Virus record (IMG/VR): IMGVR_UViG_3300046167_000825
Coordinates: 186,001 to 250,000 of that record
DNA from: a virus
Strand: one strand, 5' to 3'
Length of the DNA stretch: 64,000 bases
Part shown: piece by piece, positions 2,868 through 7,682 of the stretch
Position numbering within the stretch: the stretch's first letter is position 1
How the letters are laid out: every line of letters starts with the position of its first letter
The notes under the pieces: generated by a model
The model's database searches: none
What the model saw: only the letters and a program-made list of their open reading frames with translations
What the model was told of the DNA's origin: nothing
Position numbers and translations under genes: made by a program

Positions 2868-2948
2868 ATGTGTGAAAAATGTGAGTGTAAAGACAAATCT
2901 TGTTGTGATAGTTGTGATTGTTGTTCCAAACATTGTTGTTGTGAATAG
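2868..2948 (+). CDS. Metallothionein-like Cys-rich peptide (26 aa)
   Basis: A 26-residue frame with 11 cysteines (positions 2, 5, 7, 12, 13, 16, 18, 19, 23, 24, 25), separated mainly by Lys, Asp, Glu and Ser. It is preceded by an excellent AGGAGG site and ends 26 bases before the thioredoxin ATG. The Cys spacing (CxxCxC, CC, CxCC, CCC) resembles metallothioneins, so binding of zinc, copper or cadmium is likely but unproven. It is too short for normal gene callers. Alternatives are an unstructured Cys peptide acting on a host protein, or a leader peptide. Confidence 0.65.
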   Translation: MCEKCECKDKSCCDSCDCCSKHCCCE

Positions 2949-2974
2949 TCTTTCTATATAGAGCAGAGATAAGT

Positions 2975-3289
2975 ATGGAACGAATAACCGATGCAATATT
3001 TGACGAGAAAGTCCTTGATGTGGCACACACTGTGGTCGTGAAGTTCACAGCCTCTTGGTGTGCTCCTTGTAGGGCTTTCAACCCCATTTTACTTGAAGCC
3101 GAGAAAGACCATCCCCACATCTCTTTTTACGAGGTAGATGTAGAGGAGAACGAGGGGCTTACAGAGGATTTTGAGATCCGTAGTTTACCTACCACGCTCA
3201 TTTTCCATGAGGGTCAACAAGTGGGTGAGGCGAAGGGTCTCGTCAGTAAAAATGTTCTGTATGCAGTACTCTCAAAGTTTGGAGAATGA
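2975..3289 (+). CDS. Thioredoxin-like protein
   Basis: 104 residues, the usual thioredoxin length. The active site WCAPCR is at about residues 28-33 after a beta strand (VVVKFTASW), and the cis-proline strand LPTTLIF follows at about residues 72-78. Likely role: disulfide reduction for ribonucleotide reductase (the class II enzyme at 29.2-31.2 kb has a C-terminal Cys pair) or as a polymerase processivity factor as in T7. It lies between the Cys-rich peptide and a 57-residue unknown and is probably co-transcribed with them. Confidence 0.88.
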   Translation: MERITDAIFDEKVLDVAHTVVVKFTASWCAPCRAFNPILLEAEKDHPHISFYEVDVEENEGLTEDFEIRSLPTTLIFHEGQQVGEAKGLVSKNVLYAVLSKFGE

Positions 3290-3290
3290 C

Positions 3291-3464
3291 ATGGCTTTTA
3301 TGAAAACATCTGTCGGCTTAACCCAAGCCAAAGAAATCAATGAAGAAACCTTATTGTCTGGGATGACAAACGATCAGATCAAGAATCTTCTGAAACGATA
3401 TCTCGATGGTAAGAACATCGGATTCAAACCCTCAGCAGACCTCTTGAAGAAGTATGGTTTTTAA
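3291..3464 (+). CDS. Small hypothetical protein
   Basis: 57 residues starting at an ATG directly after the thioredoxin stop, with GGAG six bases upstream. The open frame extends further back but those residues overlap thioredoxin in another frame. The product is basic and mostly helical (MTNDQIKNLLKRYLDG). Its stop overlaps the end of a convergent minus-strand gene. Function unknown. Confidence 0.7.
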   Translation: MAFMKTSVGLTQAKEINEETLLSGMTNDQIKNLLKRYLDGKNIGFKPSADLLKKYGF

Positions 3465-4987: not shown

Positions 4988-5240
4988 ACTACAACATTTT
5001 GAGTGGATACCTTATCTCTATGGAGATGAGTTCGATATTAAAAGTGTGGAAGAGATACTACACCAGCAAATCACAGACAGAGGCTTGAACAAAACACAGT
5101 TTGTGGGTTTCCTTTTTCAGTTCTGTCTAACGATAGCCACGAAGTTCAACAAGAAACTCGGTTATGAAGAAGACACACTCCAAATAGGGGCTGTTGTTAT
5201 TCATGAAGCATTGCTATACAGAGCATTGGATAAGATGTGA
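4959..5240 (+). CDS. Hypothetical protein
   Basis: 93 residues, predicted mostly helical after a short N-terminal strand. The start overlaps the previous gene and its stop overlaps the GTG start of the sigma factor (GTGA), implying translational coupling. That arrangement would suit a regulator of the sigma factor, but this is inference from position only. Confidence 0.65.
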   Translation: MRLTLIPPNKLQHFEWIPYLYGDEFDIKSVEEILHQQITDRGLNKTQFVGFLFQFCLTIATKFNKKLGYEEDTLQIGAVVIHEALLYRALDKM

Positions 5241-5989
5241 TTTACAAACGAATAACCCCCGAAGAAGAAATCGAACTATCCCGAATAATTCAAGAAGGTG
5301 GTGAGGATGCACCTCTCGCAATTGAAAGATTCTTGCACGCCAATCTGAGATTAGTTCATTACCAAGTTTCGAAGATGCCTTCGGTAGACCCAGAACAGCA
5401 ACAAGATTTAATTCAAGAGGGGAACATCGGTTTAATCACTGCCATCAAAAAGTTCGACCCAAAATATGGCTGTCGGTTCTCGACTTACGCCATTTGGTGG
5501 GTTCGACAAAGTATCCAACGGTCACTAGAGAAAGATCGTACCATCAAAGTACCCTCTTACCGTCAGAGTATGAATCGAAAGATAGTCATTCTTTACGAGG
5601 AAATGGGTGAGAACCCTCAGAGTATCTCACACCTATGTGATTACTTCGGTTTAAGCAGAGAAGATATCATGTTGGCTCTTCAACCTTGCAGTTGCACCTC
5701 ATTAGAAGCCGAGATCGCTGAGGGCTTATCTATCCTAGAAACCATTGGTGTTGATGACAATCCCGAAGAACATTTTTTTGAGAAGGAGAGGGAACAAGTA
5801 TTGATGGATCTTCTAGCGAAACTCAATGAACCCGAAAAAATATTGCTTGAAATGCGATTCGGTTTGAAAGGTCAGAATCCGACATCTTATCGGGAGATTG
5901 CTGAAGTGCTCGGATTGAGCCGTCCTCAAGTATATCAGACTCTAACTAGACTTCTAGGTGAACTCCGAAAAAGTGTGTCAAAGCCCTAA
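5237..5989 (+). CDS. Sigma-70 family RNA polymerase sigma factor
   Basis: 250 residues with all core sigma modules. Region 2 is at about 30-100 (HANLRLV, DLIQEGNIGL, KFDPKYGCRFSTYAIWWVRQSI: the -10 recognition and melting helices). A region 3 helix-turn-helix follows at about 103-145. Region 4 at about 190-247 has LLEMRFGL and a helix-turn-helix (YREIAEVLGLSRPQVYQTL) for the -35 element. No N-terminal region 1.1, as in RpoH, SigF or RpoS-like alternative factors. It starts with GTG overlapping the preceding stop. The best candidate to read the N17 promoter family found in this window. Confidence 0.92.
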   Translation: MIYKRITPEEEIELSRIIQEGGEDAPLAIERFLHANLRLVHYQVSKMPSVDPEQQQDLIQEGNIGLITAIKKFDPKYGCRFSTYAIWWVRQSIQRSLEKDRTIKVPSYRQSMNRKIVILYEEMGENPQSISHLCDYFGLSREDIMLALQPCSCTSLEAEIAEGLSILETIGVDDNPEEHFFEKEREQVLMDLLAKLNEPEKILLEMRFGLKGQNPTSYREIAEVLGLSRPQVYQTLTRLLGELRKSVSKP

Positions 5990-6552: not shown

Positions 6553-6578
6553 TTTCCTACACAATTTAGGAGGTGTAT

Positions 6579-7682
6579 ATGTCAATATTTGACGAACTAC
6601 AAAACAAACCGAAGAAGAAAGTCTTTGTGTCTGTTGACCGTGACGAGTTCACGGAAACAATATCAAACGCTTTCGATTATGAGTTCACTGGTCGCTCCGA
6701 GTTCACAACTTGGACAATGCCCACAGTACCTAGCAATTTTGGTGTGGGTGTTATCGTGGGGGACAGTGGCACGGGTAAATCCTTACTTCTGAAAGAGTTT
6801 GGTGACCCCGAAACAGTGAAATGGCAGAAACGAAAAGCAGTGGCTTCTCATTTCAAAAACCCCGAACAAGCCCAGAAAAAACTGATGAGTGTGGGATTCA
6901 ATACCATCGAGTCTTGGCTGAAGCCCTACCATGTGCTTTCTATGGGTGAGAGATACAGAGCCGTAGTCGCTCGGACTGTGAGGTCGGGGGCAGTGTATGA
7001 TGAGTTCACGAGTGTCGTTGACAGAGACACCGCTAAAAGTTTGTCTGTGTCTTTACGGAGGCTCATAGACGATGAGGGATACACCAACATTGTGGTGGCT
7101 ACTTGTCACGATGATATTCTTCAATGGTTACAACCCGACTGGGTCTTCAATTCCAATACGGGTGAGTTGTCCGTTGGGAGGTCACTTCGGACACCGTGCG
7201 AACTTCAAATCTTCGGAACAGATTCATCTGCTTGGGGAATGTTTGCTCCGTATCACTATCTAAATCACTCTATCAATGCGGCTGCAAAATGTTTTGTTGC
7301 CACTTGGGAGGGGAAACTGGTTGGGTTCTCTGCCGTCTTGCCTTTCCCTTCTGCCATAAAACATGCTTGGCGTGGTCATCGGACAGTCATCTTCCCTAAG
7401 TTTCAAGGGATGGGTTTCGGGGTTCGACTCAGTGATGCCATTGGTGAGATTATGAAAGGAAGAGGGAAAAGGTATTTTTCGAGAACGGCTCATCCGAGAA
7501 TGGGTCAATATCGGGAAAACTCAACCCTTTGGAGAGCCACTTCAAAAAATCTTGTTTATCGCACAGACAATCGGGGAACTATTCGGGAATCCATGCGATA
7601 CAAAAAAGGTGAGGTAGTGCCGATGGATGAGAGAGATAGACGGAGAGTTTGCTATTCTCACGAATATCTAGGTCAAGTCTGA
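6579..7682 (+). CDS. ABC-type ATPase fused to GNAT acyltransferase
   Basis: 367 residues in two domains. The N-terminal ABC-like ATPase has Walker A GDSGTGKS (61-68), signature LSMGER (120-125), Walker B GAVYDE (137-142) and an H-loop His at 177. The C-terminal GNAT domain (about 205-360) has the acyl-CoA loop FQGMGFG at 275-281. As I recall, fusions of this kind in phages have been proposed to modify DNA bases, by analogy to Mu Mom, a GNAT-fold protein that modifies adenine. Substrate here is unknown; protein acylation is the alternative. No membrane segments, so it is not a transporter. AGGAGG before the ATG fixes the start. Confidence 0.8.
   Translation: MSIFDELQNKPKKKVFVSVDRDEFTETISNAFDYEFTGRSEFTTWTMPTVPSNFGVGVIVGDSGTGKSLLLKEFGDPETVKWQKRKAVASHFKNPEQAQKKLMSVGFNTIESWLKPYHVLSMGERYRAVVARTVRSGAVYDEFTSVVDRDTAKSLSVSLRRLIDDEGYTNIVVATCHDDILQWLQPDWVFNSNTGELSVGRSLRTPCELQIFGTDSSAWGMFAPYHYLNHSINAAAKCFVATWEGKLVGFSAVLPFPSAIKHAWRGHRTVIFPKFQGMGFGVRLSDAIGEIMKGRGKRYFSRTAHPRMGQYRENSTLWRATSKNLVYRTDNRGTIRESMRYKKGEVVPMDERDRRRVCYSHEYLGQV

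Follow-up and report, generated by a model that had tools for sequence, protein, structure and literature searches.

A cysteine-rich 26-residue ORF directly upstream of a phage thioredoxin gene, a candidate minimal metallothionein-like peptide

Polycysteine leader ORFs of mycobacteria, reportedly described by Canestrari and colleagues in 2020, as cited in PMC13236596 and PMC9094748, offer an analogue for a short Cys-rich ORF that acts as a translated leader. The metal clusters of bacterial metallothioneins (MTs) use about 10 ligands, as in Zn3Cys9His and Cd4Cys9His (PMC7387436), and HypB of E. coli has a high-affinity Ni(II) site, CXXCGC (PMC7055735). Here we analyze a Cys-rich ORF of a phage against these systems. 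It lies in a window of 64,000 nucleotides, the whole stretch of DNA under analysis, corresponding to bases 186001-250000 of a virus record of 289,014 bases, the genome of a giant phage.

The ORF (2868-2948, + strand) encodes a peptide of 26 aa, MCEKCECKDKSCCDSCDCCSKHCCCE, in which 11 residues (42%) are Cys with the spacing C-x2-C-x-C-x4-CC-x2-C-x-CC-x3-CCC. The N-terminus reads MCEKCEC, and CxxCxC, CxC, CC and CxxC motifs are all present. A Shine-Dalgarno (SD) sequence, AGGAGG (2856-2861, + strand), is separated by a 6-nt spacer from the ATG at 2868. The ORF is positioned in a tightly packed gene array, where it fills most of the otherwise empty 146 nt that separate a 54-aa ORF from the thioredoxin (Trx) gene. 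The Trx gene (2975-3289, + strand; PF00085, E 9e-23) starts 26 nt past the stop of the Cys-rich ORF. It encodes a CxxC active site (WCAPC) and is the sole PF00085 protein in the record. Three elements of the preliminary description are thereby borne out: an ORF of 26 residues with 11 Cys, confirmed by sequence and by shuffles, a near perfect ribosome site, and a location directly upstream of thioredoxin.

To the left of the Cys-rich ORF are ThyX (274-948, - strand), a sigma-factor-like protein that forms the left conserved flank of the module (1864-2652, + strand; phrog_1740) and, directly upstream, the ORF of 52-54 aa (2670-2828, + strand; ATG at 2670 or GTG at 2664). The right conserved flank is a 57-aa protein (3291-3464, + strand), whose homologue adjoins the sigma-like gene in a related contig, L002. 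The sigma-like protein at 1864-2652 carries a strongly conserved core (HEVRKL, PEDVLQEIY, FGHYVHMVCGC) common to dozens of viral contigs, and a second sigma factor (5237-5989) is encoded less than 4 kb away. Further along, positions 6573-7682 encode a 369-aa protein with a phrog_11143 match, which combines an ABC-type ATPase-like part with a GNAT acetyltransferase domain.

The composition of the peptide is metallothionein-like and unlike low-complexity noise. At the genomic Cys frequency of 0.95%, the binomial probability of at least 11 Cys in 26 residues is 4e-16, a post hoc figure. Beyond Met1, the 14 residues other than Cys are drawn exclusively from E, K, D, S and H, for which the phage's own composition gives 0.296^14 = 4e-8, likewise post hoc and indicative only. 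When the window was randomized 100 times by an order-2 Markov model, the most Cys-rich ORF of 20-60 aa averaged 17% Cys and never exceeded 27%, and the runner-up among real ORFs of this size in the window has 15%. Across the whole 289-kb record, the other small ORFs (10-100 aa, at least 13% Cys) contain no more than 5 Cys each. The simplest reading is selection on the peptide itself, beyond its TGT codons.

We searched for relatives of the peptide at the level of families, structures and Cys patterns. It is absent from every protein library searched, and ORFs this short are routinely missed by gene callers. Searches of Pfam (E up to 10), NCBIfam (E up to 10) and PHROGs (E up to 1) gave no family match, profiles being possibly insensitive for 26 residues, and no PDB structure matched. 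A tblastn search of the 26-mer against the phages collection, in which the low-complexity filter may mask the query, gave no match. Scans of the phages collection, IMG/VR and the GTDB genomes, at the sensitivity used, revealed no homologue that shares the Cys pattern of the peptide. A looser pattern with the same order of Cys residues returned 15 stretches from IMG/VR, most of them out of frame or poly-Cys repeats and none a credible homologue. None of the 23 matches of a GTDB pattern scan is a stand-alone gene of this type; one (L370) falls at the end of a larger J-domain-like ORF, another (L366) is a HypB-like N-terminus that begins MCTTCGC, and most of the others lie antisense to long ORFs or in a different frame from them. 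The term metallothionein-like in the preliminary description holds for composition, motifs and polar or charged fillers (high Cys in CxC, CC and CxxC, almost no hydrophobic residues), but does not extend to MT profiles of Pfam and NCBIfam, to known structures or to a phage family.

Some other phage peptides came to light in this work. Contig L014, which was reached via the loose Cys-pattern matches, encodes three peptides in tandem (oriented start 138) that begin MCKSCGC or MCATCGC; such peptides, with basic or glycine-rich tails, also occur in L067 and L069, and their start resembles the HypB Ni-binding motif. A 35-aa SD-led (AGGAGG) peptide with 9 Cys, MPKCETCNHECHCIVDGSCTINRCDCGNCVCKKED (L131:2109, - strand), is a metallothionein-like candidate.

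Loci related to the window were sought through the sigma-like protein (8, then 38 loci) and through ThyX (80 loci). In the 38 sigma-like and 80 ThyX loci, no SD-led Cys-rich small ORF was found near the match. Only one of these loci is syntenic, IMGVR 3300046171_000314 (L002/L273), which keeps the order ThyX, 118-aa protein, sigma-like protein and 57/79-aa protein. The 79-aa homologue of the 57-aa protein directly follows the sigma-like gene in this relative, and no thioredoxin was found in its 148-kb record, which may be a fragment; this single relative (n = 1) thus lacks the whole block made up of the 54-aa ORF, the peptide and Trx. Conservation of the Cys pattern in related phages, on which the preliminary description had made its reading depend, was looked for and not seen, the sole syntenic relative having neither the peptide nor Trx. 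None of 8 other sampled thioredoxin-encoding phage loci has a Cys-rich peptide beside Trx.

To survey viral Cys micropeptides, we searched IMG/VR for an SD followed by MCxxCxC...CC and for an SD followed by MCxCCxCC. SD-led peptides of 13-16 aa of the form MCxCCxCC..., all unannotated, occur in at least 22 viral contigs; their first seven codons are partly set by the search pattern and the later CxC part is free. The peptide MCKCCKCCTCTCPECN is found in 14 contigs in three nucleotide versions whose differences are synonymous only. Further micropeptides are MCSCCKCCNC(N/D)CC, MCNCCDCCDCGCGCKS, MCKCCECCDCGCDCK, MCKCCDCCDCDCGCNC, MCKCCDCCDCGCDC, MCDCCDCCNCCCK and MCKCCKCCNCTCCE, and across the variants the Cys residues are kept while the polar fillers vary. 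In most of them the stop codon overlaps the SD or start of the gene that follows, or lies just ahead of it. In L029 (3577-4358), MCKCCKCCNCTCCE stands directly before phage IscU-like (NifU_N, E 1.3e-37) and IscA-like (Fe-S_biosyn, E 1.3e-13) genes, and its TAG stop overlaps the IscU SD. The other micropeptides adjoin varied genes, many of them unknown or structural-looking and mostly not redox genes. Besides L029, the contigs with such peptides are L241, L242, L244-L246, L248-L252, L255-L257 and L259 and L028, L043, L054, L055, L070, L243, L247, L253, L254 and L258. Two micropeptide groups show distant DNA kinship to Kyanoviridae (Synechococcus, Pelagibacter and Methylophilales phages), and the micropeptide is missing at the matched place in related isolate phages. 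The window peptide (MCEKCEC) lacks the MC-x-CC-x-CC start of this class, and no homology between the two is detectable. In phages, marine ones among them, SD-led Cys micropeptides with polar fillers recur in parallel to the window peptide, and by analogy this separate class indirectly supports the metallothionein idea.

The window ORF is a real and unusual small ORF that probably encodes, judging from its sequence, a miniature metal-binding peptide. On balance we favor a reading in which Trx is co-expressed with a minimal, metallothionein-like metal-thiolate peptide, because of the Cys spacing, polar fillers, strong SD, gap fit, uniqueness and ligand number. Such a peptide would be a single-domain metallothionein-like molecule whose roughly 11 Cys thiolates and one His enclose soft metal ions in a small cluster, the obvious candidates for the metal being Cu(I) and Zn(II). 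The adjacent thioredoxin, if made together with it, could keep the peptide cysteines reduced and ready for binding, and the pair may buffer the metal and thiol redox state of the infected cell. Against the metal-thiolate reading are the lack of a homologue and of an MT profile or structure match, the syntenic relative without the peptide and the 8 other Trx phage loci without a Cys-rich neighbor. In addition, a role at the RNA level would account for part of the same data.

The main rival explanation, which does not exclude the first, is that the ORF is a cis-acting translated leader controlling Trx, with a possibly dispensable peptide; on present modelling we consider this possible but unlikely. 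A long mRNA hairpin is predicted (2897-3008, + strand) in which Cys codons are base-paired to the SD, the start and the opening codons of the thioredoxin gene. The hairpin would hide the trx SD and start, and ribosomes on the Cys-rich ORF would open it, such that Trx output would track the passage of ribosomes through the 11 Cys codons and, with it, the level of charged tRNA-Cys and the cysteine supply. Between the Cys ORF and the 5′ region of trx, 40.8 pairs are expected compared to 10.0 +/- 8.5 for 78 other adjacent gene pairs of this phage (maximum 38.7), and the region has an MFE z-score of -2.4. The value of 40.8 pairs is attained in 2/150 codon-order shuffles (25.1 +/- 7.0) and 0/150 recodings of the non-Cys codons (24.5 +/- 8.2), and in the model, ribosomes on the upstream mRNA raise the accessibility of the trx start from 0.30 to 0.53-0.76. 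However, UGU-rich composition accounts for about half of the pairing excess, since shuffled or recoded versions still give about 25 pairs, and recoding the Cys codons between TGT and TGC attains 40.8 pairs in 42/150 cases. Recoding the trx codons leaves start accessibility unchanged, the region has no Rfam match, and the hairpin is predicted from a single sequence. None of 8 other phage Cys micropeptides shows unusual pairing to the next gene, and a codon sensor would not need all-polar fillers. The sign is also odd for a relief circuit, as a ribosome stalled at early Cys codons would keep the hairpin closed and less Trx is then predicted at low cysteine. A cis-acting leader ORF, with some RNA-folding evidence, was absent from the preliminary description. 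From the folding models it is plausible that translation of Trx is coupled to that of the peptide, and such coupling would be compatible with a functional peptide; as a leader, the ORF would constitute a phage cysteine-sensing switch acting on thioredoxin.

Two other explanations concern the peptide and the ORF themselves. The peptide may be a thiol or persulfide carrier, a substrate or partner of Trx in redox buffering or sulfur relay with no defined metal cluster. It adjoins Trx, and a different Cys micropeptide adjoins IscU and IscA in L029, but each adjacency is seen in one genome, other micropeptides lie beside unrelated genes, and no ribonucleotide reductase large subunit was found in this record to explain Trx; we regard this explanation as improbable. 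That the ORF is a chance or decaying one, an open TGT-rich low-complexity stretch, would fit the use of TGT for 11/11 Cys codons (75% genome-wide), the lack of a homologue and the syntenic relative without the ORF. We nonetheless hold it to be very improbable in view of the strong SD at optimal spacing, the shuffles that never exceed 27% Cys, the filler composition (0.296^14) and the exact gap fit.

A broader and speculative proposal, which we put forward as doubtful, joins these observations: Cys micropeptides of 13-26 residues would form an overlooked class in phages, marine ones above all, of minimal metal or sulfur carriers that often overlap the start of the next gene. Some would feed neighboring redox or Fe-S proteins (Trx here, IscU and IscA in L029), and the window peptide would be the longest member, with a hairpin that ties Trx to cysteine supply. 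If the window peptide and the smaller Cys micropeptides bind metal, phages may steer the metal or thiol chemistry of the host cell with metallothionein-like peptides that are among the smallest of their kind, and marine phages would be an untapped source of such peptides. Alone, the window peptide is of modest interest; more lies in the unannotated class of phage Cys micropeptides found through it.

Compared to known systems, the window peptide likewise starts with the MCxxCxC of the HypB N-terminal Ni site, but it has no GTPase domain and Glu replaces the Gly of the motif, such that the resemblance is one of motif only. With the mycobacterial polycysteine leaders it shares a short ORF rich in Cys codons upstream of a possibly regulated gene and a possible mRNA structure over the start. 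The window ORF differs from these leaders in having a strong SD and thus not being leaderless, in its lack of comparative support and in Cys residues spread along the whole length with charged spacers. The MCxCCxCC viral micropeptides are also SD-led and phage-encoded with polar or small fillers, and at least half of their residues are Cys, whereas they are 13-16 aa long with other Cys spacing, other neighbors and no unusual mRNA pairing. Bacterial metallothioneins (SmtA/BmtA type; MymT) are about twice as long as the window peptide. Unlike them, it has no profile match, contains more CC pairs, is phage-encoded and lies beside Trx instead of a metal-responsive repressor such as smtB. It shares with them a short, Cys-rich sequence with polar fillers and CxC and CxxC motifs, as well as enough ligands for one M3-4 cluster, and by analogy its ligand count could suit a cluster like those of bacterial MTs, with about 10 ligands.
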